A stretch of DNA of 64,000 nucleotides from Marinilabiliaceae bacterium (GTDB lineage Bacteria; Bacteroidota; Bacteroidia; Bacteroidales; Marinilabiliaceae). The position numbers and the translations under genes were made by a program. Below the pieces are notes generated by a model. That model was not told the origin of the DNA, ran no database searches, and worked only from the letters and a program-made list of their open reading frames with translations. Positions 174 to 53,927 of this stretch are shown piece after piece. The stretch lies in assembly GCA_016342595.1 (NCBI GenBank), contig JAEINY010000006.1, positions 1 through 64,000 of the forward strand, written 5' to 3'. Numbering within the stretch: position 1 is the first letter of the stretch; each line of letters starts with the position of its first letter.

Positions 174-1514
174 TCAACCAACGGTACCCTGATCAATCAT
201 AGCCTCGGCAACCCGCTGAAAAGCTGCCAAATTGGCCCCGCGTTGATAATTGACACCACCACCTTCAACCTTACCATATTGACCACATAATTGGTAGGTG
301 CGTTGCATAATGGTTTGTAGTCGCTGATCAACCTCTTCATTGGTCCAGACCATTTTCATGGCATTCTGAGCCAACTCCAAAGTGGACACCACCACTCCCC
401 CACCATTCACTGCTTTTCCGGGAATAAAAGTGAATGGTGCACTTTCTATTACATCCAGTGCGGCGGATGTACACGGCCGATTGGCCCCTTCCACCACCAA
501 CTGGCAGCCATTGGCTATCAACAGTTTTGCATCCCCGTGATCCAGCTCGTTTTGAATGGCACATGGAATGGCTATATCGCACGGTATCTTCCAGGGTTTC
601 TCCCCTTCAAAATAGGCTGTCCCAGGGAATTCCATGGAATAGGAACGTACCTTATCCTCATTGGAAGCACGCATCTCTACCAGGTAATCCAATTTATCAC
701 CGGCGATGCCTTCCGGATCATGAATGCATCCATCGGGACCGGAAATGGTTACCACTTTAGCACCCAAGGCAGTGGCTTTGGCAATCACGCCATGTGCGAC
801 ATTTCCAAATCCTGACACAGCGATGGTTTTACCTTTTAATGAATCACCCCGTTGATCAAGCAGGGATTTCACAAAATAGATGATGCCATACCCTGGCGCT
901 TCCTGTCGCAAGCCAATGCCTCCCCAGTCAGGTCCTTTCCCGGTAAAGGTACCATTGTGACGCCTGCTGAGTTTTTTTAACATCCCAAAGAGATACCCAA
1001 TTTCCCGTCCACCAACCCCGATATCGCCACCGGGGATATCTATATCCGGCCCCAATACATTCCATAATTCCAGCATGAAACTTTGACAAAAGCGCATCAG
1101 CTCACCATCTGATTTGCCATAGGGATCAAAATCAGCACCACCCATGGCTCCACCCAGCGACAAAGCGGTTAAGCTATTTTTGAATACCTGTTCGAAAGCC
1201 AGCATCTTAACGGTCCCGAGCGTCAATTGCGGATGAAAGCGCAAACCTCCTTTATAGGGTCCAAGGGCATTGTTATACTGCACCCGGTAAGCTCTGTTCA
1301 CAATCACTTTTCCCTGATCATTGGTCCAGGGCACTTTGAAAATAAAAATCCGATCGGGCTCTGCCAGCCTTTCTATAATACCTGCATGCTCCAAACGAAA
1401 ATCGTCTCTGATGCGATCTTCAACAGATGTTAACAAATCACGCACACTCTGCTGAAATTCCGGTTCACCGGGATGACGTTGCTCCAATTGTAATAAAAAT
1501 CGCTCTAGGTTCAT
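174..1514 (-). CDS. Glutamate dehydrogenase paralogue lacking the catalytic lysine
   Basis: The 446-residue protein aligns end to end with hexameric bacterial glutamate dehydrogenases (2-oxoglutarate + ammonia + NAD(P)H to glutamate). By the Clostridium symbiosum scheme, two substrate-site lysines are present (K88 in PYKGG, K112 in FKNSL), as is the catalytic aspartate (D164 in PGGDIGVGG). The catalytic lysine of the usual [13 protein letters not shown] motif is Met124 (SLGGAMGGADFDP); the codon reads ATG in the DNA. Other usually invariant stretches have drifted: RQEAPGYG for RPEATGYG, and GANRPCT for GANMPST. The coenzyme loop ISGPDG is of the NAD type. The frame is open over full length, so this is a divergent paralogue and not a decayed gene. 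It lies on the same strand and downstream of the two PPDK_N/receiver genes, separated by a RAYT element. A palindrome lies about 20 nt before its ATG. Normal GDH activity is doubtful; a regulatory or changed role is inference. Confidence 0.9.
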   Translation of the reverse strand: MNLERFLLQLEQRHPGEPEFQQSVRDLLTSVEDRIRDDFRLEHAGIIERLAEPDRIFIFKVPWTNDQGKVIVNRAYRVQYNNALGPYKGGLRFHPQLTLGTVKMLAFEQVFKNSLTALSLGGAMGGADFDPYGKSDGELMRFCQSFMLELWNVLGPDIDIPGGDIGVGGREIGYLFGMLKKLSRRHNGTFTGKGPDWGGIGLRQEAPGYGIIYFVKSLLDQRGDSLKGKTIAVSGFGNVAHGVIAKATALGAKVVTISGPDGCIHDPEGIAGDKLDYLVEMRASNEDKVRSYSMEFPGTAYFEGEKPWKIPCDIAIPCAIQNELDHGDAKLLIANGCQLVVEGANRPCTSAALDVIESAPFTFIPGKAVNGGGVVVSTLELAQNAMKMVWTNEEVDQRLQTIMQRTYQLCGQYGKVEGGGVNYQRGANLAAFQRVAEAMIDQGTVG

Positions 1515-1532: not shown

Positions 1533-1748
1533 GGGACTTTAGTCCCGGTTTGTCTCATACTCCAGACTGATCATGCCCCCAGACTGATCATGCTCCAGAC
1601 TGATCATGCCCCCAGACTGATCATGCCCCCAGACTGAAGTCTGGGGTTGGGTGCCGGGGTCTCCGCAGAGTCCTGCCACAGATCTATCCCCCTGCTTTAG
1701 CTTGGGGCATGCAGACAGAACCCGGAGCCATACAGGGACTTTAGTCCC
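1533..1748. repeat. Left REP-like palindrome block of the RAYT element (order A-B-C-A)
   Basis: Four palindromes occur in order. A is GGGACTTTAGTCCC at 1533-1546. B is CCCCAGACTGAAGTCTGGGG at 1627-1646. C is a CCCC/GGGG hairpin with core GCTTTAGC at 1688-1707. A recurs at 1735-1748 and overlaps the transposase stop codon. The same order occurs on the other side of the transposase gene. Confidence 0.85.
1561..1626. repeat. Tandem array of half-palindromes, 4 units of 16-17 bp
   Basis: Four units (1561-1576, 1577-1593, 1594-1609, 1610-1626) each consist of the left arm of palindrome B (CCAGACTGA with leading C or T) joined to TCATGC. The series ends in a complete B palindrome. It looks like local amplification of a half-site. 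Confidence 0.85.
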
Positions 1749-2187
1749 AGTCATCGGAAGCCACTACAAAACCATGCTTCGCCATGAATGCTTCATACTC
1801 TTGTTGCCAGGTCTGCTGTTTATGGTGTTGCACCTGATTCATAATATATCTTTCAACTCTACTTCTGTGCGATTCACTCACCGAAGCCGCGTAGTACCGG
1901 TGTGACCATTTGAATTTGTCCTTCAACAATTGTTGTTGATTCATCCAATGAGCCGACTCTCCTTTCACGTGCTGCATAATCTTATCCAAAGTCTGTGTGG
2001 ATTTAAGCCGAATCAAGGCATGCAGATGATCACTGACACCATTTAGCACTTGCACTTGAAAGCCTTTATTAAGGGACGTCTCAATGATATGCCTTATCAA
2101 TAAATCTTTCACGCACTCGGATTGCATCATTGGTTGACGTCGCTTTGTTCCCCAGACAGCATGTATCCATATTTTCACATATGACAT
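1741..2187 (-). CDS. REP-associated tyrosine transposase (RAYT, IS200/IS605 TnpA-like)
   Basis: This 148-residue protein has the Y1 HUH transposase fold signatures. They are an N-terminal IHAVWGTKRR strand, the metal-binding HUH motif as HLH (H54, H56 in VSDHLHALI), and a catalytic-tyrosine helix with Y114 in ERYIMNQVQHH. Family members cut and join single-stranded DNA at hairpin ends. RAYTs are domesticated relatives linked to REP palindromes. Here the gene is bracketed by two ordered sets of palindromes, and its stop codon lies inside one of them. The frame is intact and all catalytic residues are present, so it may be active. It sits between the 991-residue PPDK_N protein and the altered GDH, all on the minus strand, and probably split an older gene pair. 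Confidence 0.85.
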   Translation of the reverse strand: MSYVKIWIHAVWGTKRRQPMMQSECVKDLLIRHIIETSLNKGFQVQVLNGVSDHLHALIRLKSTQTLDKIMQHVKGESAHWMNQQQLLKDKFKWSHRYYAASVSESHRSRVERYIMNQVQHHKQQTWQQEYEAFMAKHGFVVASDDWD

Positions 2188-2202: not shown

Positions 2203-2319
2203 GGGACTTTAGTCCCGATTTGTCTAGTGCCCCAGACTGAAGTCTGGGGTTGATGTATCCCCATGCTTTAGCTTGGGGGCTAAGGTAGGCCACTCTGACG
2301 TCCCGGACTAAAGTCCGGG
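2203..2319. repeat. Right REP-like palindrome block of the RAYT element (order A-B-C-A')
   Basis: A is at 2203-2216, B at 2230-2249 (identical to the left copy), and C at 2259-2278. A' (CCCGGACTAAAGTCCGGG) is at 2302-2319 and carries the core of A in the opposite orientation. A' overlaps the last codons and stop of the 991-residue gene. Confidence 0.85.
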
Positions 2320-5283
2320 GTCAGGCAGCATCACCACACCCAGGCCTTTTTGTCCATCTATTTTAATCACACACGCTTGTTCAAAGCGTACATGCCGGAT
2401 ATTTTGATCCTCAAAAACCGCTGGCTGCCGATCCAAAAAATCAATATCCAGATGACCATCACCAATAGAGGGTATGACAGTGAAATAACCTACTCGTAAA
2501 CTGGTAAGATTTTGGAAGAAATGAGTGCCCTGACTGGGGTCGATCCGATAATTCTCCAGTCCCATTTCTACTATCACCCGAGCCGAGGAGATCTGTGTCC
2601 ATTTGACCGGTACGCCTAACCAGGGATCTTGAGATCCCCAGCGTCCGGGACCTATGAGTATGTAATATTTATTCTCATCATGAAACTTTTTATTTAACTC
2701 ATCAAAAACAGAAACCAGCGAGGTGTTATTCGCCGGATTAAATGATTGAGGCTTGATATACACCACATCATATACATCATTCACAATACCATTTCCCAAA
2801 GCAGATTTCGAATATATTAATGTCTCTTCCTGAGATAACTCTTCCAGTTTCTCCGAAATGGTTTCTTTAGTGTCCACAATGGGGCGTATCTGCAATAAGT
2901 AAAAGATCGGAGGCAATCCTGGTTTGGGTTGTAAATCAACTGCGAATTCCACCTCTACAGGTTGATTCATCTCCTTCTGTCCAATTTCCAGAACATGACC
3001 AATAATCTCAGCCAGAGGAAAGGCATCATATTTTAATACGTTGGCAAAAGTGACCAATCGCATCCCATCGGCCATCAGACCATCTTTGATCATGTGGTAT
3101 TGAAAATCATAGACCGATCCCAGCCATCTTAAGGTGCCATGTTTTTCAGATGCCTTCAGGTCCAGTTTTTTTAAATTAACCGCATCATTGACGGAAGGAG
3201 TGAAACTGGCGGAATTCAGATCGAGGGCAAAAAATGATTTCTGCGTTTCTTTAATGGCCATATCCGTTGTAGATAATTGCAATATCTTACGCGGGTATTT
3301 GGGGGAGAACCGTAACGAAACACCTCCTTCCACAATGTGTTTACCCAACCCCATGGCAACATTCACGATGCCATCTTCTGTCTTTTCGGGGGCAATGGGA
3401 TAAAAATTTACCGATCGGCCAACACCTGAAAATGTGGGATAAAACACATCCTCATGCTGTTGACCCACCACTTCCTGTAAAACGATTCCCATCCGCTCCT
3501 CATCAATCACATTCATAGTGGCCTCCATGTATTGTTTGCTGGATTTAAAAAAGGCAGACGCATAAACACATTTAATCGCATCACACAATTGTGAGAGCAC
3601 AATACCTTCATTGGGATCATGTGCAATCATATAAGTGGAGTAAATCCCTGCGAAGGGCTGATAATGACTATCCTCCAATACACTGCTCGATCGAATGGCA
3701 ATGGGCCCTCGTAAAATGGAAATGAATTTAAACAAATCGCCATGGATCCGTTCGGGTAAATGCCCGCTCACAAAGGCCTGCAATATTTCTTCATCCGCTG
3801 CCTCCGACAAGGCTAATGGATACAATTGATTCACCTCCATGAACTCTTCAAAGATATCTGTACTAATCACCACCGTGCGGGGAATGGTCACCACTACTTC
3901 ACCAAACTGACTAAATACCTCATGTTTTTTTATGAGCATATTTAAAAACGCCAAACCACGAGCTTTGCCCCCGATGGTACCATCGCCAATACGCGTAAAG
4001 GTGAGATACTCATCAAATTTCTCCCGGTAAAACTTGGCAATGATACCGCGCCCTTTATTGAAACGAAAGTTGGCAATCGTATCAAACAAAAAGCGTTTGG
4101 CCTCATCCAGACTACTAAAATCTTCCACCCGGATGTATTTTAACACTTCCGCAATGGCAAAAAGAGCACGCGCATTTAACCATTTGGATACATGATCGCG
4201 CTGAAAATGATACATCAATGATTCATCGGGTATTTGACATATGCGTTCTTGCAAGGTTTTCAAGTTGCTGGCCCGTCCTACTTCTTCACCGGTGCCCGGA
4301 TTAACAAAAACAAAATCGCCAAAAGCCAAATATTTATTCAGTAACTCTTTTAAGCGACGCAATAATGATTTGGAATGTTTGTAGATGAAACTCACCTTTA
4401 ATTCCTTGGCAGTAACTTCCTGATTCCGGTTTGAAGACTGTAATATAAATGGCATATACGGATTTCGCTCTTTCACCAATTTGGCGAATTTAATCCCGGC
4501 TTCCGCATCCATCTGCCCTTCTTTATCATAGGCCACATCCGAAATAATACCTAATAAATTGGACTCGTATTTTTCATACATCTCCAATGCTTCCTCGTAA
4601 GTGCGGGCCAGCAAAATCTTAGGACGTCCTCTCATGCGCATCATTTTTTGATGCTCATTTAATCCTTCATCCATGAATTTTTTTGATTGCGTGAGCACAA
4701 TGCGATAGATCAATGGCAGGTAACTGGAATAAAACCGGACAGAATCCTCGATCAATAAAATGCTTTGAACGCCGACCTCCTGCACATCATGATCCACATT
4801 CATCTCGTCTTCAATCAGCTTGATGATAGCCAACATGATATCCGCATTCCCCAACCAACAAAATATATAATCAATAGCGCTGGTATCTTCGCGTGCCATC
4901 CGCACCGATACTTCCCGCGAAAAATGAGTCAACACCACGATGGGAATGGTTGCATATTTCTCCTTCACTTTCTTCGCCATGGAAAAAGGATCCATCCCGC
5001 CAATACTCAACATGGTTATCACCAAATCAATATTGAGTTCTTCCAGTATCTCAAATGCTTCATCGGCTGTCTCCACATGAATAAACTGGGGTGGATAGCG
5101 TAAGTTAAGCGACACGTACTCATTAAAAATCTGTTCATCAATCCGGCCATCCTCTTCCAACATAAAAGCATCATAGGCACTACAAATCAATAAGACTTTA
5201 TGAATTCGCTTTTGCATCAATCGATTGAAAGCTGTTTCAGCAAAGAAATTGGAATAGCGTAAGTTGACAGGTACTTTATCCAT
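2308..5283 (-). CDS. Receiver-like and PEP synthase-type ATP-binding fusion protein (991 aa)
   Basis: Domains seen in order: a receiver-like fold (about 28-160) with methionine or leucine where the phospho-acceptor aspartate is expected (ITMLSIGGMDP); a second receiver (about 173-320) that keeps the acidic pair E179/D180, acceptor D249, S283 and K302; a linker; and the PPDK_N nucleotide-binding domain (about 433-801) with GGKARGLAFL (438-447), AIRSSSVLEDS (529-539), FAG (544-546) and the closing VEVEFAVDL and FYLLQIRP segments. A 190-residue C-terminal domain carries ILIGPGRWGSQDPW and GTHFF. The phosphohistidine swivel domain and PEP/pyruvate barrel of PEP synthase are absent, so the usual pyruvate to PEP reaction cannot be complete in this chain. 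It lies 20 bp after its 1412-residue paralogue, likely as one operon. Kinase or phosphotransfer signalling is inference. The stop codon lies inside a REP-like palindrome. Confidence 0.88.
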   Translation of the reverse strand: MDKVPVNLRYSNFFAETAFNRLMQKRIHKVLLICSAYDAFMLEEDGRIDEQIFNEYVSLNLRYPPQFIHVETADEAFEILEELNIDLVITMLSIGGMDPFSMAKKVKEKYATIPIVVLTHFSREVSVRMAREDTSAIDYIFCWLGNADIMLAIIKLIEDEMNVDHDVQEVGVQSILLIEDSVRFYSSYLPLIYRIVLTQSKKFMDEGLNEHQKMMRMRGRPKILLARTYEEALEMYEKYESNLLGIISDVAYDKEGQMDAEAGIKFAKLVKERNPYMPFILQSSNRNQEVTAKELKVSFIYKHSKSLLRRLKELLNKYLAFGDFVFVNPGTGEEVGRASNLKTLQERICQIPDESLMYHFQRDHVSKWLNARALFAIAEVLKYIRVEDFSSLDEAKRFLFDTIANFRFNKGRGIIAKFYREKFDEYLTFTRIGDGTIGGKARGLAFLNMLIKKHEVFSQFGEVVVTIPRTVVISTDIFEEFMEVNQLYPLALSEAADEEILQAFVSGHLPERIHGDLFKFISILRGPIAIRSSSVLEDSHYQPFAGIYSTYMIAHDPNEGIVLSQLCDAIKCVYASAFFKSSKQYMEATMNVIDEERMGIVLQEVVGQQHEDVFYPTFSGVGRSVNFYPIAPEKTEDGIVNVAMGLGKHIVEGGVSLRFSPKYPRKILQLSTTDMAIKETQKSFFALDLNSASFTPSVNDAVNLKKLDLKASEKHGTLRWLGSVYDFQYHMIKDGLMADGMRLVTFANVLKYDAFPLAEIIGHVLEIGQKEMNQPVEVEFAVDLQPKPGLPPIFYLLQIRPIVDTKETISEKLEELSQEETLIYSKSALGNGIVNDVYDVVYIKPQSFNPANNTSLVSVFDELNKKFHDENKYYILIGPGRWGSQDPWLGVPVKWTQISSARVIVEMGLENYRIDPSQGTHFFQNLTSLRVGYFTVIPSIGDGHLDIDFLDRQPAVFEDQNIRHVRFEQACVIKIDGQKGLGVVMLPDPGL

Positions 5284-5303
5284 CTGTTTAATTTATATTT
5301 TTA

Positions 5304-8300
5304 CTATTCGTTATAAGTAATAATTGCCATTCTTTTTCGTCCGTCCATGCGAATGGTTAATGAATTATTAAACTGTATGTGTTTAAAATAACGCATTTGG
5401 TCTACTATTGGTTGTTGATTTAATAAATCCCAATTGACATATGCTTCTTTTTCGTGATGTTGTATAGAGAGATAACCCACATTCATGGACGTTACATTAT
5501 GAAAAAAATGAGATCCCCCGGAAGCTTCCAAAGGATAGTCCTCCAAATCGGTTTCAATAATCACTTTAGCATGAGAAATCTGAGTCCAGGCGACGGGTAT
5601 GCCTATCCAGGGATCACGCGTGCCCCATCGCCCTGGTCCGATTAACACATAGGATCGCCCCTGTAATTTAAGTCTATTATTAATTTGCTCAATCTCTGCC
5701 GCCATTTCACGGGTTTTTGATTTATCGAAGGCATTCACATCCAAATAGACGACATCATTGATATCTGTAATCTTACCATTACCCATTCCATGATTGGTTT
5801 TTACAACAATCTTGTCCGCATCAATTTTGGCCGTATTAATGGAATAATCATGAGCACTGCCGATTAAGGGTTTTATTTGAAGCAGATAAAAATAAGCGCG
5901 CCCTTTGCTGTCCTTATTAAGATCCACTGCAAATTCAATTTCAACCGGTGAGCCCAATGCCTCTTTCACTACATCCAATACCACTTCAATGGTTTTAGAC
6001 AAGGGCATGTAATTGTATTTCAGGATATCAGTATAATTCAAGATGCGCGGCCCGGATTGTTCTAATCCGGGCGAAATGGTATTATTATCCGGATTATAAA
6101 CCGATGCTAAATGCCGGATGGTTCCATGTACCTCTGCATGATAAGCATCTGCCCGAATTAAACCGGCCGTTTCACCCTCCAACAGATCGAGATGTTGCTT
6201 ACCCAAATCCACCGCATAGAACTCTGTTTGGGAATTTTTAAACTGATCTTTGGGTGAATTAATCTCCAGATCAGGATACACCGGACAAAATCGCCAGGCC
6301 TTTTCACCATCTACCACATACTTCCCCAACCCTAAAGCGATAACTGCAAACCCATCCTCCGGATTCATATGACCAAAGGAGTAATAATTGTACGATTGGG
6401 CCACACCACTGATGTGCGGATAAAAAAACTGATCGTAAGAATGCCCGACAACTTCCTGAATGATGACCGCCATCCGCTCTTCTTCAATTTTAAAATCAAC
6501 CGCTTCGGTAAAAGCCCGGGCCGTTTCACTAAAGATGGAGGCATACACCAGCTTAATGGCTGCACAAAGTTGATTGAATCGTTCATTCGGATGTTCATGG
6601 TTATTGGGTAATAAGTAAGTATCAAAAACTCCGGCAAACGGCTGTTTTAAACTATCTTCCAATATACCTGACGAGCGCACCGCTAATGGTTTTGTAAAAA
6701 TAGTGAGTAAGCGCTTCAGGCGGCGTTCCAATGTTTTTGAAAGTTCTCCCTCCAGAAAGATCATTTTTATCTGTTGAAAAGATAACTCCCGAAAGTAAAG
6801 GTCCTGTAGTTCATTGCGCTCTATAAACAACTCAAACTCATCCGTTCCTATCACGGTTGTGCGGGGCATTTTAATCACTACTCCCGGAATATGTGCACCA
6901 AAATCAAAATTAAAAAGCAAGGTGTTGATAAAAGCCAAACCACGTCCCTTGCCACCCAATGATCCACCTGATAAACTATATACATTATTCTCATCGATGT
7001 TATCCACATCATTAAAATCGATTACTTTCCCCTGATTCTGCTCTTCCCGATGCCGTCGCAGTACTTTAATTAAATATTCCCGAAGCAGTTCCTCCGATTC
7101 AAAATCACTGATCCGATACGGCGCTATTATCCGGGCAATCTTAATTTCCCCCCTGGCCATCAACCACATGGAAAAATGATTTTTACGCGCATGGTAGACA
7201 ATACTATCAATGGGTACATTCCTCAAATTCTGCTCAAACTCTTTCAGGTTGCGTGCAATCGCTATGGATCGTCCGTGTGCATCTTTGTACACAAAATTCC
7301 CAAAACCCAGGTAATGACTGATAAACGTTTTAATATCCTGAAGCAGACTTTCTGAGTATTTGTTGATAAATACCGTCTTCAATTCATAGGCATCCTGGGA
7401 ATATTCAATTTTCGATGATTGCATAATAACTGGCAGATCCTTCAATTTGGACTTCACATGATTCACTAAATCAAATCCCGCATTCGGATCCAAACGGCCA
7501 TTACGCAAAAATTCCACATCGGAGATGAGACAAAGCAAATAGTCCTTATACTTATCAAAAATCTCCAGTGCACTTTCATAACTACTTACGACCAATACTT
7601 TGGGACGGGCTCGCAAACGCAACACAGCGTATAACTCATCGGCACTCACATCTTCGATCAATCGGTTGGTTTGCTCTAACACACTGGAATATAAAAAAGG
7701 TAAATACTTTGAGTAATATTTTACGGAATCTTCAACCAACAAAATAACACGTGCCAATCCCACTTGTGTATCATTTTCAACATTCACTTTATCCTCCAAA
7801 TGAAAAACCATGGAAGAGAAAATTTTTGGATCACCATTCCAAACAAACAGCTCATCCAAAACGCCCATCTCCTTTTTTCGAGCTTCAAAAAAAGGAATAT
7901 CGGCATCGTTATTCAGAAGAATAAAAATGGGGACATAGGGAAAAGCCTTTTTAACCAGCTGACTCAATTCAAGTGGCGAACGTTTATCCACCCCGACCAT
8001 CACGATGATCAAATCGAAGTGCTTTTCATTTAACTTATCAATGGCCTCTTCGTAGGTCGTAACACCTGTAACCCTGGGTAAGGTTAACAAATGCAACTGG
8101 TGGAAACCACCCAATATCTGCTCCGTAAACCGGCCTTCACTTTCAATGGCGTAAGCATCGAATAAATTGGCCACCAAGAGTATTTCTTTAACCCTGAAGG
8201 GCATCAAATCATAATAAATATCGCGGGCTGCATTATTTTTGTGCATAAAATTTTGAAGCAGATGTTTACTTTTCCGAGATGGTCCTTTTGTGACATCTTT

Positions 8301-9542
8301 CTTTTGCTTCAAATATTCACCAGCATAAAGTCGTCTTGATTTTTCCATCAAGTCACGTGCATGAATGCTATTTAAATAGCCTACAATGAGATTCCCCAGA
8401 TTACGAATCAAATCCGTTTCCTCATTAAGAAAAAGTTCCTGACGCGTTTTGGCAAACTCCTTCAAATAATATACTTCAATAGCCCCCGTCTGCCGATCAA
8501 TGGTCTCATATTTATACCGTAATACCCACGGTGTTTCAATAAAACCCGGGCTAGTAAATTCATGTTGTTCCAATCGGATACGAGCCACAGAATACTCCGG
8601 GAATTGCATTCCTCCCGGCAAAAGCTCCGCAATACGATTCAATGTAAAAGAAACCGGCATGTGTTGATTAATGATCCGTGTCGTTTCATTAATTGTTCTT
8701 AGCTCCTTTACCCGCTCCTGACGCTCTTGTTTTTCACTCTGCGCCAGTGTTTGATTTAAAAAATCTGTGATCAAGCGGGTTAAATTAGTGAGCAAATCAC
8801 GCTCTTCTTTTAAAAACGGGTCACCAGACAGATAGGAGAAGTCTCGGGTATAAAACACATCCATGGAGCCTGAACCGCCGTCCATTGTTTGAAAACGCCG
8901 GGTTTGTACCCACTCGGTTTCGATAAACCGCTCACTGGTATAATCATGTCCTGCATAGGAAATACGTGCCACAGTAAATTCAGGATATTGCCAACCCGAT
9001 GGCATCAAAAAAGCGACTTGCTGTAACACATCATCCACCGATTGCCCTTCATTGATAATGCGGGTAGTTCGATTAATCACAGATAATTCTTTTAAGCGCT
9101 CAACTGATTCAGAATGTTTACGCTCGGAGATAATGTGATTAATAAAACCGGAAAGAAGTCGTGCCGTTTGATTTATGAGTAAACGCTCATCGTATAAAAA
9201 AGGCCCTTCATCGCGATCGGGTTGTTCAGTGAGATAGTAGGCATCGATGGCACCTTTACCACCATCTACAGTGGAAAAGCGTTCGGTAATACCCAATCCT
9301 GTTTCCATAAAACCTGACGATGCAAACTCCCACTCCTTAAATCGTATCCGAACCCCAATTTGATCGGATCGCATCCAGGCCTGCGGTAAAACGCTGATTA
9401 ATTCCTCCAGCGTTTCATCAATTGGATTATCCTGCTTTATAATCTGAACCACCTGATTCAGTATATTTAAAATACGAGCAGAAGCGACCCCATTTGCAGG
9501 CCCCTCATTGATTGAATCCCATTTATCCCAACCCCTTTGCAT
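5304..9542 (-). CDS. Triple GAF-like, dual receiver, PEP synthase-type ATP-binding fusion protein (1412 aa)
   Basis: The N-terminal 400 residues hold three similar modules (about 30-140, 160-265, 290-392). Each has a LPxxW/M start, a short strand pair, a TxDGGxG or TIDRQTG turn and an FLxEExxL helix; they resemble GAF-type sensor domains. Then follow a receiver-like domain without acceptor aspartate (about 452-590, IIVMVGVDKRSP) and a receiver with E604/D605, D675, S709 and K728. The PPDK_N domain (about 855-1225) has GGKGRGLAFI, AVRSSGILEDS, FAG, and EIEFAVDL with FYLLQIKP. The C-terminal domain matches the 991-residue paralogue (ILIGPGRWGTRDPW, GSHFFHN). No signal peptide or membrane segment is seen, so it is probably cytoplasmic. 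No phosphohistidine or PEP-barrel domain is present. It is the first gene of the minus-strand series and probably co-transcribed with the paralogue. The ligand of the sensor modules and the phosphate target are unknown. Confidence 0.88.
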   Translation of the reverse strand: MQRGWDKWDSINEGPANGVASARILNILNQVVQIIKQDNPIDETLEELISVLPQAWMRSDQIGVRIRFKEWEFASSGFMETGLGITERFSTVDGGKGAIDAYYLTEQPDRDEGPFLYDERLLINQTARLLSGFINHIISERKHSESVERLKELSVINRTTRIINEGQSVDDVLQQVAFLMPSGWQYPEFTVARISYAGHDYTSERFIETEWVQTRRFQTMDGGSGSMDVFYTRDFSYLSGDPFLKEERDLLTNLTRLITDFLNQTLAQSEKQERQERVKELRTINETTRIINQHMPVSFTLNRIAELLPGGMQFPEYSVARIRLEQHEFTSPGFIETPWVLRYKYETIDRQTGAIEVYYLKEFAKTRQELFLNEETDLIRNLGNLIVGYLNSIHARDLMEKSRRLYAGEYLKQKKDVTKGPSRKSKHLLQNFMHKNNAARDIYYDLMPFRVKEILLVANLFDAYAIESEGRFTEQILGGFHQLHLLTLPRVTGVTTYEEAIDKLNEKHFDLIIVMVGVDKRSPLELSQLVKKAFPYVPIFILLNNDADIPFFEARKKEMGVLDELFVWNGDPKIFSSMVFHLEDKVNVENDTQVGLARVILLVEDSVKYYSKYLPFLYSSVLEQTNRLIEDVSADELYAVLRLRARPKVLVVSSYESALEIFDKYKDYLLCLISDVEFLRNGRLDPNAGFDLVNHVKSKLKDLPVIMQSSKIEYSQDAYELKTVFINKYSESLLQDIKTFISHYLGFGNFVYKDAHGRSIAIARNLKEFEQNLRNVPIDSIVYHARKNHFSMWLMARGEIKIARIIAPYRISDFESEELLREYLIKVLRRHREEQNQGKVIDFNDVDNIDENNVYSLSGGSLGGKGRGLAFINTLLFNFDFGAHIPGVVIKMPRTTVIGTDEFELFIERNELQDLYFRELSFQQIKMIFLEGELSKTLERRLKRLLTIFTKPLAVRSSGILEDSLKQPFAGVFDTYLLPNNHEHPNERFNQLCAAIKLVYASIFSETARAFTEAVDFKIEEERMAVIIQEVVGHSYDQFFYPHISGVAQSYNYYSFGHMNPEDGFAVIALGLGKYVVDGEKAWRFCPVYPDLEINSPKDQFKNSQTEFYAVDLGKQHLDLLEGETAGLIRADAYHAEVHGTIRHLASVYNPDNNTISPGLEQSGPRILNYTDILKYNYMPLSKTIEVVLDVVKEALGSPVEIEFAVDLNKDSKGRAYFYLLQIKPLIGSAHDYSINTAKIDADKIVVKTNHGMGNGKITDINDVVYLDVNAFDKSKTREMAAEIEQINNRLKLQGRSYVLIGPGRWGTRDPWIGIPVAWTQISHAKVIIETDLEDYPLEASGGSHFFHNVTSMNVGYLSIQHHEKEAYVNWDLLNQQPIVDQMRYFKHIQFNNSLTIRMDGRKRMAIITYNE

Positions 9543-11833
<2,291 letters not shown>

Positions 11834-16597: not shown

Positions 16598-17935
16598 TTA
16601 AACAACACCTTGAGCCATCATTGCATCGGCCACTTTTACGAAACCGCCAATGTTTGCTCCTTTGATGTAATTTATCTTACCATTAGGTTCTTTACCATAT
16701 TTCACACAAGCTGCGTGAATTTCTGTCATGATTTGATCTAAACGATCATCCACTTCTTTTTCAGACCAGTTCAAACGCATGCTATTTTGAGTCATTTCCA
16801 AACCAGAAACAGCAACACCACCAGCGTTAACAGCTTTACCAGGCGCAAACATGATTTTATCCGTTGCCAGGTAAGCAGCTTCAGCAGTACATCCCATATT
16901 AGAAGCTTCAGCAATCATTTGACAACCATTGGCGATCAACATTTTTGCATCTTCTTCGTTCAATTCGTTTTGAATTGCACAAGGAATAGCGATGTCTACT
17001 TTTTGTTCCCAAGGCTTTTTACCAGCGATGAATTGAGCACCATACTTTTCAGCATAAGGCGCAACGATATCCTGGTTAGAAGCACGTAACTCTAATAAGT
17101 AGTCAATTTTCTCACCTGTGATACCGTCAGCATCATAAACATATCCATCAGGACCAGAGATAGTCACCACTTTAGCACCATATTCAACAGCTTTTAAAGC
17201 AGCACCCCAGGCGACATTACCAAAACCTGAAACAGAAACAGTTTTACCCTTCATTGTTTCACCTTTCGTAGCCAACATTTCACGTACGAAATAAATAGCA
17301 CCAAAACCAGTTGCTTCAGGGCGGATCAAACTACCACCGAACTCACGTCCTTTACCAGTTAATACACCAGTAAATTCGTTTCGCAATTTTTTGTACTGAC
17401 CATACAAGTATCCGATTTCGCGACCACCCACACCGATATCACCAGCAGGCACATCCGTGTTAGGACCAATGTGACGGAATAACTCACTCATAAAGGCCTG
17501 ACAGAAACGCATAATTTCAATGTCAGATTTTCCTTTAGGATTGAAATCAGACCCACCTTTACCACCACCCATAGGCAATGTTGTCAAGCTGTTTTTGAAT
17601 GTTTGTTCGAAACCTAAAAATTTCAAACCACTCAACGTTACACTTGGGTGGAAACGTAAACCACCTTTATAAGGTCCGATAGCCGAGTTGAACTCTACAC
17701 GGAAACCACGGTTCACATGAACCTCACCGCTATCATCAATCCAAGGTATACGGAAAATGATGGTCCTTTCAGGCTCCGTCATACGCTCCAATATCTTGGC
17801 TTTTTTATAATGCGGGTTTTCCTGGTAGAAATCCCATACAGTTTCAACTACTTCTTGCACTGCCTGCAAGAACTCATCTTCGCCAGGATTTTTCATCCTA
17901 ACGCCGTCCATGAACTCATTCATCTTTACGTCCAT
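16598..17935 (-). CDS. Glutamate dehydrogenase, probably NAD(H)-type
   Basis: This 445-residue paralogue is complete. K90, K114, K126 ([15 protein letters not shown]) and D166 ([13 protein letters not shown]) are all present, as is the [12 protein letters not shown] substrate segment. The coenzyme loop is ISGPDGYVYD, like the NAD-dependent Clostridium symbiosum enzyme, in contrast with LSDSSG of the plus-strand copy at 10.5 kb. Bacteroides species are known to carry separate NADP- and NAD-linked enzymes, and these two copies fit that pattern. Codon choice is of the preferred, highly expressed kind compared with the 174-1514 copy (inference from inspection). It has its own promoter element and terminator, and follows the D-2-hydroxyacid dehydrogenase gene on the same strand after 336 bp. 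Confidence 0.95.
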   Translation of the reverse strand: MDVKMNEFMDGVRMKNPGEDEFLQAVQEVVETVWDFYQENPHYKKAKILERMTEPERTIIFRIPWIDDSGEVHVNRGFRVEFNSAIGPYKGGLRFHPSVTLSGLKFLGFEQTFKNSLTTLPMGGGKGGSDFNPKGKSDIEIMRFCQAFMSELFRHIGPNTDVPAGDIGVGGREIGYLYGQYKKLRNEFTGVLTGKGREFGGSLIRPEATGFGAIYFVREMLATKGETMKGKTVSVSGFGNVAWGAALKAVEYGAKVVTISGPDGYVYDADGITGEKIDYLLELRASNQDIVAPYAEKYGAQFIAGKKPWEQKVDIAIPCAIQNELNEEDAKMLIANGCQMIAEASNMGCTAEAAYLATDKIMFAPGKAVNAGGVAVSGLEMTQNSMRLNWSEKEVDDRLDQIMTEIHAACVKYGKEPNGKINYIKGANIGGFVKVADAMMAQGVV

Positions 17936-49691: not shown

Positions 49692-52600
49692 TTATAACCA
49701 ACGCATCACACCAAAGTCCTGCTTATGTGCTAATTCATTGTGATACGGATACATTCTGACACCAAACTTAAAAATACCGGGTAGGTTTAAGGTGTGATTC
49801 AAAAGGAAATACAATTTTGTCCCTTCTTTCTTTTCTACCACAAAAGGTTCCGTGTGTACCATTGTATACTCCCCGTCTTCACTTCCTTCAGCGATAACCA
49901 TTTCCATACCTAAATCAACACCGGATAAACGTTTCAGATCAACTGCTATCTTAATACTATATTTATCCCCAATACCTAACTCCTGCTTGCCGATATCAGG
50001 CATATCCATGTCAATAATTTCTACCTCATCCCATGCAGCCAGCACTTTGCGTTTCCAGGCCGCCAGCTCACGTGCCAGTTGATAATCATCTGCTTTTAAC
50101 TTTGCTGATCGCTTATGCTGAGGACGGTAAAATTTATTCTTATAATCATCCAACATACGTTTCGTTGTAAACTCAGGTGCTATCTGGGCAATGGAATTCT
50201 TCACATACTCCATCCAACCACGTGGTACTCCTTGATCATCCTGATCGTAATACAGAGGGATTAATTCATTCTCAAGGATACTATACAAAACAGCAGCATC
50301 CAACTCATCCTGGTAACTTTGATTTTCATAAGTCCGTTGTTCCGTTAACGACCACCCGGCATTCTCGCGATAACCTTCAAACCACCAACCGTCCAATACA
50401 CTCAAATTCAACACACCATTCATTTCAGCCTTCTGACCGGAGGTACCGGATGCTTCCAATGGTCGAGTGGGTGTATTCATCCAAACATCAACGCCACTGA
50501 CTAAGCGCTTGGCCAGCTCCATGTCGTAATTTTCCAGGAAAACAATTTTTCCCACAAACTCCGGACGACGCGATATTTCAACGATGTGCTTAATCAACGA
50601 TTGCCCGCCGCCATCTGCCGGGTGTGCTTTCCCTGCAAAGATAAATTGCACCGGACGATCCTTATTGTTAACAATCTTATCCAATCGTTCGGTATCCGTA
50701 AATAACAGATGAGCCCGCTTGTAAGTAGCGAAACGCCTTGCAAAGCCGATGGTCAAGGTTTTATCATTCATCCTTTCCAGCACTTCAAATACCAGGGAAG
50801 GATCCTCATGAAGCGTGGCCATATTTTTCTTGATCCGGTCCTTTATAAACACCATCAGTTTTTTCCGAAGCTGATTTCGGATATCCCAGATCTTATCATC
50901 AGCAATACTCTGTATGTGTTCCCAATAGCGCTTATTGGCTAAATCGGACATGAAGTCATCATCGAACTGCGTTTCATAAAACTTACGCATTTCTTTACCG
51001 GTCCAGGTGCTATAATGAACGCCATTGGTTACATATCCAATGTGTAATTCCTCGGCAAAAAATCCTTTCCACAGATTTTTGAACATCTTCTTGGAAACCT
51101 CACCGTGCAACCAACTCACCCCATTCATTTCCTGCGATGTTTTAGCGGCCAGGTTACTCATGTTAAACTTCTCATGGACATCGCCTGGATTTTCACGTCC
51201 CAGGTTCATAAACTCATCCCATGAAATGGTTAATTTCTCAGGGATATGCCGTAAGTAGATCCTGAACATATCTTCATCAAACTTATCATGACCTGCCGGC
51301 ACTGGTGTATGTGTAGTAAACAGGGATGTAGACCGCACAATTTCCATGGCTTCATGATAGGTAAACTTTTGCTCGATCAGATTGATCAATCGTTGAATAT
51401 TAATAAGTGCAGCATGTCCTTCATTACAATGGTATAAATCACTTTTAATATTCATGGAATCCAATATACGAATACCACCCATTCCCAAAAGTATCTCTTG
51501 TTTCAGGCGGTTCTCCCAATCACCTCCATACAAACTATGGGTGATATGGCGATCAGCCGGTAAATTCAGCTGCATATCTGTATCCAATAAATACAGTGGA
51601 ATGCGTCCAACCATGGCCCGCCACACTTTTGCATAAACGGTCCGTCCGGGCATATTAATGGTGACCTGACAAGGTGTTCCATCTTCTTGTCTGACCTCTT
51701 CCAACGGAAGGCTTGAGAACTCCTGCGCATCATAATTAGCCAGCTGTTCACCATTTAAGGAGAGAGACTGTCGGAAATAACCATGTCGATAAAGCAATCC
51801 GACGGCTACCATATTAACGGCACAGTCACTGGCTTCTTTGAGATAATCACCAGCCAGTACTCCTAAACCGCCCGAATAAATCTTCAATACATCACTAATC
51901 CCATACTCCATGCTGAAATAGGTGATAGCAGGCCCCTCTTCGAATGGTCGCTCCATGTAATTATGAAACATCGAATAGACCTGATCTACTTTATTTACAA
52001 AATCTTCATTATTGGAAAGTTCTGATAAGCGTTCAAAAGAAACCTGATCTAATAACAGGATTGGATTTCGTTTAACCTCTTTCCATAGTATGGGATCGAT
52101 AAATCCGAACAATTCCATGGCCTGGTAATTCCATGACCACCAAAGATTACGAGACAATTCATGCAGAACCTTCAGGCGTTTGGGCAACCGCGATTTAACT
52201 ACGATTTTTTTCCAAACGGGTAGCGCCGAAACCTGCGGTTTGACTCGAACACGTGCTTCCTTCTTAATAGGACTAAAACTATCACGCCGGCCATTCACAG
52301 CTTTTAATGCGAGATCATATGCTTTATAATAATTCTTAATAAGGGTCTCCCATTGCACTGATTGTGCAATCTGACGAGATTTAGCACTGACAATCTTCAC
52401 CTCATCAACAGATAAACCGGCATATTGAGCGATTACTCCTGATATGGCAAGTGATACATTTTTATGATTCTCATCATCCCGATGAAGGACTTCAACACCA
52501 TCCGTAATACTCTTGGAGAATTGACGCGCCCATAGTCCAAAACCTGCCAAATCCGTGGTGATCGTAGGAATGTTGAAAGCCAGACTCTCCACAGGTGTAT

Positions 52601-53927
52601 ATCCCCAAGGCTCGTAATACGATGGGAAGACCGTTAGATCCATCCCTATAAGCACATCATAATAATGAAGGTTCAAGATACCGTCGTCACCATGTAAATA
52701 GGAAGGCACAAAGATCAACTTCACTTTATCATCAGCATCGTTGCTCAAATGAATATCCTGCAGTTTATTAATGATCGGATCGTATCCTAAATCATTGAGC
52801 CCATGTGTCAAAAATGGATTATCCAAAAGCGTCGTATCGGATGGGTTTTCCAGTTTTGATATCAAATCTTTCCGAGGTCCGTAAGTATTTGCCGGTATTA
52901 ATACAAAGGCCACCACTTCGCGCTTTAAGTGACCTGACTCATTCAATTCCTTCAAGGCATCCATAAACACATCGATGCCTTTATTTTTATATTCGTACCG
53001 GCCACTATTGGCAATGAATAATGCGTCATCACTAAGCTCATAACCTAACAGAGCCTGAGATACCTGTTTCAGTTTTTCACGGGCAGCCTTGCGTTTCTTT
53101 TCATACTCCTCACTTTGAGGCACGAAATCTTCTTCGAATCCGTTGGGGGTCACCACATCGATTTCACGTCCGTGAAACTGATAACATTCACGAGCTGTGA
53201 TATCAGATACGGTAGTAAAACAATCCACATTAAGAGCGGTCTTTTTCTCCATGGAGTGTTTGGACACCACAAATAATTCCTGAGCTTTGGCATCCCCGTC
53301 ATAATTACTCAAGTGATCGTAAAAGGTATATCCATTACCAGCCAGGGAACGACCTACCACCGTTGCATGGGTAGTGAAGATAGTGCCCACCTGAGGTAAT
53401 ACCTTATTCAAATACAAAGCCCCTGAACCAGTCATCCACTCATTGTAATGAGCCACTACTTTATCATTCATGGTTAAATGAAAACGATAGAAACTCTCAA
53501 TCACTTTACCAGATGCATATCCAAATAAAACAGACTCTATGTAATCCCACTCACCGCTTAAACTATCTACTTTAAACCAATCCCAATACTTTGCCAGTAT
53601 TTCGTTCTTTGTTTGTACAAATCCGGAGAAATCAACTAATATAACAATGGGTTTTCCAACAATGTTCCACCTTCCAATTCGAATATTTATGCCCTCCTGC
53701 TCTGTCTCCTCCTTCCACTCCTGAAAAAGAAAGTCATCCTGAATAAATTCAGGATTACTAGTAGAACCACGCCAGACATCAGGGCCAATAAAAATTAAAT
53801 TATCCTGAAATTGTTGCACCAACGTTTGAGCTTTGGTGGCCAACACCGTGTGAATCCCACCCATTTTATTACAAACCTCCCAACTTGCTTCAAACACATA
53901 GTCGGGCATCAAATAACTATTAATCAT
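49692..53927 (-). CDS. Glycogen synthase (GT3)-alpha-glucan phosphorylase (GT35) fusion
   Basis: The 1411-residue chain joins two enzymes. Residues 1-545 form a eukaryote-type glycogen synthase: NKMGGIHTVL (20-29), THATVVGRSLAG, VVTPNGF, and SGRYEYKNKG (308-317). The catalytic glutamates are E439 and E447 in PSYYEPWGYTPVE. Residues 575-650 match DUF3417, the usual N-terminus of Thermotoga/Thermus-type phosphorylases. Residues 660-1250 are the phosphorylase, with SMEYGI, the CNEGHAAL and HTPVPAGHDKFD segments, GFARRFATYKR, and the PLP-binding lysine K1166 in GTSGQKAEMNG. A beta domain closes the chain. One protein thus carries opposite activities, chain extension from a sugar nucleotide and phosphorolysis. 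It is the last gene of the five-gene glucan operon. A start at the seventh codon (MPDYVFEASWEV) is also possible. Confidence 0.93.
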   Translation of the reverse strand: MINSYLMPDYVFEASWEVCNKMGGIHTVLATKAQTLVQQFQDNLIFIGPDVWRGSTSNPEFIQDDFLFQEWKEETEQEGINIRIGRWNIVGKPIVILVDFSGFVQTKNEILAKYWDWFKVDSLSGEWDYIESVLFGYASGKVIESFYRFHLTMNDKVVAHYNEWMTGSGALYLNKVLPQVGTIFTTHATVVGRSLAGNGYTFYDHLSNYDGDAKAQELFVVSKHSMEKKTALNVDCFTTVSDITARECYQFHGREIDVVTPNGFEEDFVPQSEEYEKKRKAAREKLKQVSQALLGYELSDDALFIANSGRYEYKNKGIDVFMDALKELNESGHLKREVVAFVLIPANTYGPRKDLISKLENPSDTTLLDNPFLTHGLNDLGYDPIINKLQDIHLSNDADDKVKLIFVPSYLHGDDGILNLHYYDVLIGMDLTVFPSYYEPWGYTPVESLAFNIPTITTDLAGFGLWARQFSKSITDGVEVLHRDDENHKNVSLAISGVIAQYAGLSVDEVKIVSAKSRQIAQSVQWETLIKNYYKAYDLALKAVNGRRDSFSPIKKEARVRVKPQVSALPVWKKIVVKSRLPKRLKVLHELSRNLWWSWNYQAMELFGFIDPILWKEVKRNPILLLDQVSFERLSELSNNEDFVNKVDQVYSMFHNYMERPFEEGPAITYFSMEYGISDVLKIYSGGLGVLAGDYLKEASDCAVNMVAVGLLYRHGYFRQSLSLNGEQLANYDAQEFSSLPLEEVRQEDGTPCQVTINMPGRTVYAKVWRAMVGRIPLYLLDTDMQLNLPADRHITHSLYGGDWENRLKQEILLGMGGIRILDSMNIKSDLYHCNEGHAALINIQRLINLIEQKFTYHEAMEIVRSTSLFTTHTPVPAGHDKFDEDMFRIYLRHIPEKLTISWDEFMNLGRENPGDVHEKFNMSNLAAKTSQEMNGVSWLHGEVSKKMFKNLWKGFFAEELHIGYVTNGVHYSTWTGKEMRKFYETQFDDDFMSDLANKRYWEHIQSIADDKIWDIRNQLRKKLMVFIKDRIKKNMATLHEDPSLVFEVLERMNDKTLTIGFARRFATYKRAHLLFTDTERLDKIVNNKDRPVQFIFAGKAHPADGGGQSLIKHIVEISRRPEFVGKIVFLENYDMELAKRLVSGVDVWMNTPTRPLEASGTSGQKAEMNGVLNLSVLDGWWFEGYRENAGWSLTEQRTYENQSYQDELDAAVLYSILENELIPLYYDQDDQGVPRGWMEYVKNSIAQIAPEFTTKRMLDDYKNKFYRPQHKRSAKLKADDYQLARELAAWKRKVLAAWDEVEIIDMDMPDIGKQELGIGDKYSIKIAVDLKRLSGVDLGMEMVIAEGSEDGEYTMVHTEPFVVEKKEGTKLYFLLNHTLNLPGIFKFGVRMYPYHNELAHKQDFGVMRWL

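Follow-up and report, generated by a model that had tools for sequence, protein, structure and literature searches.

Two tandem receiver/PPDK_N genes among GDH genes

The window, i.e. the whole stretch of 64,000 nucleotides that was analysed, contains two neighbouring genes on the same strand with a spacing of 20 bp. The sequence-only reading had described them as genes for proteins of 991 and 1412 residues, and both were recovered as ORFs (2308-5283 and 5304-9542, minus strand). The encoded proteins, here called P1 and P2, share 35% identity over 983 positions. The locus comprises the following features:

174..1514 (-), GDH type I, downstream of P1 on the same strand (Pfam/NCBIfam)
1741..2187 (-), IS200/REP-associated transposase between P1 and the downstream GDH, outside the system (Pfam/NCBIfam)
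2308..5283 (-), P1, 991 aa: pseudo-receiver, receiver, PPDK_N ATP-grasp and C-terminal swivel-like domain (ORF, Pfam, model)
4780..5205 (-), P1 receiver 1 (residues 27-168), degenerate, with M91 at the phospho-Asp position (Pfam Response_reg; alignment of 62 homologues)
4324..4770 (-), P1 receiver 2 (residues 172-320; VIA-align Z 13-14 to receiver domains; invariant columns)
2863..4005 (-), P1 PPDK_N ATP-grasp (residues 427-807) with K440, R531, E777, E779, Q798 and R800 (Pfam E 4.4e-39; conservation)
2311..2847 (-), P1 C-terminal domain (residues 813-991) with GPGRWG loop and SxG[TS]HFF motif, predicted swivelling phosphohistidine-type fold (models, VIA-align, conservation)
2521..2523 (-), codon of P1 His921, the proposed phosphohistidine (invariant in 199/199; opens helix 921-928 in the model)
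5304..9542 (-), P2, 1412 aa: three N-terminal repeats, receiver pair, PPDK_N and C-terminal domain
8298..9488 (-), P2 N-terminal sensor-like repeat, three copies of about 125 aa each
7305..8192 (-), P2 receiver pair (alignment with P1; Pfam Response_reg E 2.7e-4)
5850..6989 (-), P2 PPDK_N ATP-grasp (Pfam E 5.5e-35)
5307..5834 (-), P2 C-terminal swivel-like domain, His at about 5508-5510
10481..11833 (+), GDH of the NADP type (NCBIfam NF006929), divergent from P2 across a gap of 938 bp
16598..17935 (-), third GDH of the genome

The cluster comprises all GDH genes that we detected in the genome, which bears out the earlier statement that P1 and P2 are positioned among three of them. These copies have diverged from each other, the other two being 50% and 65% identical to the GDH at 10481-11833. 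The repeat of about 125 residues in P2 is covered by no Pfam family and recurs at the N-terminus of nucleotidyltransferase-type homologues. No RNA elements were detected near P1 and P2 at Rfam gathering scores within the first 20 kb of the window. A role in antiphage defence was rejected, as there was no PADLOC match. Further along the window (49692-53927, minus strand) lies a gene for a 1411-aa fusion of glycogen synthase, carbohydrate phosphorylase and DUF3417.

Domain composition of P1 and P2

The structure model of P1 contains two receiver folds, and to this extent the receiver-like pair proposed from the sequence stands. A full phosphorylation site is, however, present only in the second one. 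As in response regulators, receiver 2 retains the complete set of residues (E179/D180, D249, S283/S284 and K302, conserved in an alignment of 62 homologues), and judging from these residues it can probably be phosphorylated, whereas receiver 1 is degenerate and carries a methionine (M91) instead of the phospho-Asp. A further difference concerns the output, which is a putative ATP-using phosphotransfer module in P1 and P2 but a DNA-binding or cyclic-nucleotide domain in response regulators.

The claim of a full PEP synthase-type nucleotide-binding domain was confirmed. PPDK_N lies above the Pfam cut-off in both proteins, and the catalytic residues of the ATP site (K440, R531, E537, D538, E779 and Q798) do not vary among the homologues (199/199). 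In structural comparisons with VIA-align, the ATP-grasp domain of P1 matched the rifampin phosphotransferase RPH-Lm with a Z of 25.2 and HpeI with a Z of 18.3. The invariant ATP-site residues and the one intact receiver also agree with the idea of a signal-controlled, ATP-using phosphotransfer protein; the ligase-like reaction that had been suggested alongside found no support.

Both proteins end right after the C-terminal domain, and a PEP barrel was without Pfam match in them, as the sequence-only reading had stated. Among the parts of PPDK and PEP synthase, the PEP barrel is the only one that is surely absent from P1 and P2. Because the barrel is absent, P1 and P2 cannot make PEP alone, and the assertion that they are unable to carry out the known reaction is correct in this respect; it probably does not extend to the histidine half-reaction, given the predicted swivel-like domain. 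One could assume that they represent one half of a split PEP synthase or PPDK, whose partner (a PEP barrel or a His domain) is encoded elsewhere, since PPDK_N is common to both and split dikinases do exist. However, no lone barrel is found beside the P1 and P2 genes, and two relatives (G003 and G005) possess the P family without any PEP-utilizers match, so that we regard this as highly improbable. The split PEP synthase was rejected, since the single PEP-utilizers domain of the genome sits inside its own complete PPDK.

The C-terminal domain had been described as unique, with GPGRWG and G[TS]HFF motifs. The motifs are indeed present and no Pfam family covers the domain in P1 or P2, but its structure model resembles swivel domains. 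Modelled alone, the approximately 175 residues of the P1 domain gave a pLDDT of 92.5 and a pTM of 0.90. The top VIA-align match of this model is the swivel domain of RPH-Lm (residues 756-867, Z 6.9), and further matches are several PPDKs (residues 384-512, Z 5.4-6.7), the C-terminal domain of a pyruvate kinase (Z 6.5) and domains of PTS enzyme I (Z 5.5-5.6). Over all phosphohistidine swivel domains matched, the Z values range from 5.2 to 6.9, which is a moderate score. Most of the other VIA-align rows (chaperonin apical domains, aconitase, LD-carboxypeptidase and RraA) likewise belong to the swivelling beta/beta/alpha fold of SCOP.

Alignments of the full P1 model cover both the ATP-grasp and the C-terminal domain, with a Z of 24.6 for PEP synthase (417-988 to 4-467) and of 17.9 for PPDK (412-987 to 7-510). 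The C-terminal domain directly follows PPDK_N, in the same place as the swivel domain of PPDK, and the order of its strands and helices is that of the genome's own PPDK. H921 opens a helix after the strand 'VIVE', and the catalytic histidine of PPDK likewise opens a helix after 'ILTARGGMTS'. Together with F922, F923 and the GRWG..D loop, H921 is invariant in 199/199 homologues. The surrounding motif is a different one: SxG[TS]HFF replaces the canonical GGxTSH (GGxTSHAA in PEP synthase and PPDK), and the motif T/SxxGGxxxH of small-molecule dikinase swivel domains (PMC12167813) is not found either.

Comparisons by sequence gave no corresponding signal. With hhalign, the C-terminal profile had no significant match to the phosphohistidine domains of 19 PPDK sequences or to a broader set of 47 PPDK/PEP-utilizers domain sequences, and a PDB sequence search with the profile returned nothing meaningful. 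Foldseek with the C-terminal model gave no significant match, so that it is by VIA-align only that swivel domains rank first. It is possible that the domain has an unrelated beta/alpha fold, in which the histidine binds a metal or has a structural role, and these missing matches as well as the moderate Z values would fit such a view. Nevertheless, we consider it unlikely, since the top structural matches are nearly all phosphohistidine swivel domains, the full-length alignment puts the domain at the position of the swivel domains of PPDK and PEP synthase, and both the strand/helix order and the histidine at the helix start agree with swivel domains. As predicted from the models, the C-terminal domain is probably a divergent swivelling phosphohistidine-type domain. 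The earlier claim that a phosphohistidine domain is missing is probably wrong in view of the invariant histidine and the best matches of the model, although the sequence profiles do not confirm the predicted fold.

With PEP synthase and PPDK, P1 and P2 have in common a PPDK_N domain of identical catalytic residues and, directly behind it, a predicted swivel-like domain whose histidine stands at a helix start; they differ by the absence of the PEP/pyruvate barrel, the additional receivers and the linkage to GDH. Rifampin phosphotransferase (RPH) and the two-component small-molecule dikinases HpeHI, PpsAB and CreHI, among which the best structural matches are found, combine an ATP-grasp domain and a swivel histidine without a PEP barrel, which is the arrangement predicted for P1 and P2. 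In contrast to the RPH/HpeHI type, P1 and P2 possess no drug- or phenol-binding helical domain, the swivel-like domain comes straight after the ATP-grasp domain, receivers are fused to it and GDH genes are linked.

Distribution of the family and its linkage to GDH

The domain layout is not peculiar to the window. Matches to the family were found in 39/41 near relatives and in 49/296 genomes of a phylum-wide sample; among GTDB genomes, the number of matching stretches is at least 593. Five types can be distinguished: P1; P2, which has the N-terminal repeats and occurs in tandem with P1; the orphan P3; a minimal type of about 580 aa that consists of PPDK_N and the C-terminal domain and nothing else; and a type of about 1060 aa, in which the N-terminal repeat, PPDK_N and the C-terminal domain are fused to a nucleotidyltransferase domain. 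P3, the third paralogue (1006 aa), is encoded on another contig of the genome (G000 contig C61, L003/L151 6181-9198) without a GDH gene. In relatives, P3 orthologues are often located near fabD-like genes and genes for ribosomal proteins or elongation factors. Each of the 20 Bacteroides genomes tested (20/20) possesses exactly one P1 orthologue. A literature search retrieved no relevant paper on the receiver/PPDK_N/C-terminal architecture or on BT_1972 (see below), and the family is apparently undescribed.

Some observations concern the types with fewer or additional domains. A branch adjoining GDH carries a C-terminal NTP_transf_2 domain with an E of 5e-8 (L116 6646-9837, L119 3846-7025, L122 3840-6581), which recalls the nucleotidyltransferases that regulate glutamine synthetase. 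Minimal members (L116 4913-6652 and similar loci) are situated between a GDH-II gene and a gene of the nucleotidyltransferase type.

The linkage to GDH holds far beyond the window, as a count of GDH neighbours over Bacteroidota shows. Considering homologues with at least 3.5 kb of flank on both sides (n=129, rows that are not independent of each other), a GDH gene is located within 3.5 kb of 82, compared with an expectation of about 0.9%. This applies to 25/50 members of the P1 clade, 31/37 of the receiver type from other classes (with a median gap of 99 bp), 10/10 of the minimal type and 15/17 of the nucleotidyltransferase-fused type. Two groups served as negative controls: the orphan P3 subclade is GDH-linked in 0/11 cases, and canonical PPDK adjoins GDH in 0/20. 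The link recurs across several classes, with two GDH types and in different gene orders. Several genomes have alternating GDH-P-GDH-P-GDH arrays. Clusters with an alternation of GDH and receiver/PPDK_N genes and with two GDH types per cluster were seen at L127, L128, L129, L173, L183 and L209.

There is also a correlation by presence, which is nearly perfect outside the window's class. There, GDH-I (11/11 genomes with the receiver type versus 1/50) and one GDH-II subtype (8/8 with the nucleotidyltransferase type versus 0/53) accompany the respective type. Within the window's class, many genomes have GDH-I without the P family, so GDH-I does not generally require the P family. In about half of the P1-clade loci and in all P3 loci, GDH is not adjacent, and neighbouring genes may share regulation without any contact between their products. 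The association of the family with GDH is real and broad.

A possible role in the control of GDH

We propose, with a probability of about one half, that P1 and P2 act as histidine dikinases which are gated by their receivers and whose dedicated task is the control of GDH; the phosphotransfer chemistry, the gating by the receiver and GDH as the regulated target are inferred from the domains and the linkage described above. In characterized dikinases, the phosphate passes from the ATP-grasp domain to the swivel histidine and from there to an acceptor at a second site, and HpeH loses its activity when its histidine is replaced by Gln (PMC12167813). The PPDK_N ATP-grasp domain would charge His921 in the swivel-like domain with phosphate taken from ATP, by analogy with rifampin phosphotransferase, PPDK and PEP synthase. 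The charged swivel domain would then hand the phosphate to an acceptor outside its own chain, as neither a PEP barrel nor a drug-binding domain is present. Phosphorylation of receiver 2 at D249 would set whether the transfer happens, with the N-terminal sensor-like repeats as a possible further gate in P2. As an outcome, the activity of the neighbouring GDH would be altered, either by direct modification of GDH or via a small messenger.

GDH is a plausible direct target. The more specific assumption that the GDH protein itself is the acceptor, which would make P1 and P2 two-component-gated protein dikinases that use a swivelling phosphohistidine for nitrogen control across Bacteroidota, is made tentatively and has clearly less than an even chance. 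To our knowledge, phosphorylation of a metabolic enzyme via a swivelling phosphohistidine has not been described for the PPDK superfamily. It is also conceivable that the charged histidine phosphorylates a metabolite of carbon or nitrogen metabolism (for instance a 2-oxo acid or an amino acid) and that GDH is a mere pathway neighbour. The nearest domain matches are RPH and HpeI, and the known characterized enzymes with PPDK_N and swivel domain (PEP synthase, PPDK, RPH, HpeHI and PpsAB) all act on small molecules (PMC12167813). However, an acceptor-binding domain is absent, the minimal type consisting of PPDK_N and the C-terminal domain only, and the linkage is to two types of GDH and not to pathway genes, which points to GDH itself. 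A small-molecule dikinase is therefore rather unlikely in our opinion.

P1 and P2 could also be non-covalent, ATP-driven partners of GDH, i.e. allosteric subunits or assembly factors that bind nucleotide and GDH. The tight adjacency of GDH would suit such a partner, as would the receivers and N-terminal repeats with their resemblance to sensory input. Still, the catalytic ATP residues and one histidine are invariant in 199 very diverse members, which suggests chemistry and not binding alone, and a purely binding role is in our view quite unlikely.

Old genetic observations in Bacteroides offer a possible link. According to the title of a paper by Baggio and Morrison from 1996, the GDH activity of B. 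thetaiotaomicron depends on trans-acting gene(s) (PMID 8955404). In a congener of this species (L197), gdhA and the P1 orthologue are adjacent and convergent. L219, the congener with the best match to B. thetaiotaomicron, has a catalase gene next to gdhA, followed by the convergent P1 orthologue and a second GDH gene. In the experiments of Baggio and Morrison in 1996, GdhA made in E. coli reportedly needed a 3-kb segment located downstream of gdhA in order to be active, and insertions in this segment are said not to have been recoverable. The P1 orthologue is likewise located downstream of gdhA, in convergent orientation, in both congeners. In B. fragilis, a reversible inactivation of GDH in vivo was reportedly observed in 1987. 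We know of no protein to which either the trans-acting gene of 1996 or this inactivation has been tied so far.

The P1 orthologue is the leading candidate for the trans-acting gene. Two papers name BT_1971 as a catalase, and this suggests for B. thetaiotaomicron the gene order of L219, with BT_1972 as the P1 orthologue. Since gdhA and the P1 orthologue are separated by a catalase gene in L219, and probably also in B. thetaiotaomicron, the identity with the gene of 1996 is open to some doubt, and the effect may be owed to a gene other than P1.

If the proposed function is true, the dikinase superfamily would reach from metabolism and drug inactivation into signalling. In gut Bacteroides, GDH is one of the main routes of ammonia assimilation. 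The genes of the family adjoin GDH genes in many Bacteroidota, among them gut Bacteroides, and this makes the family a strong candidate for a missing switch in the control of ammonia assimilation. With the P family, there is now a named and mutable candidate for the control of GDH, with K440, H921 and D249 as defined residues.
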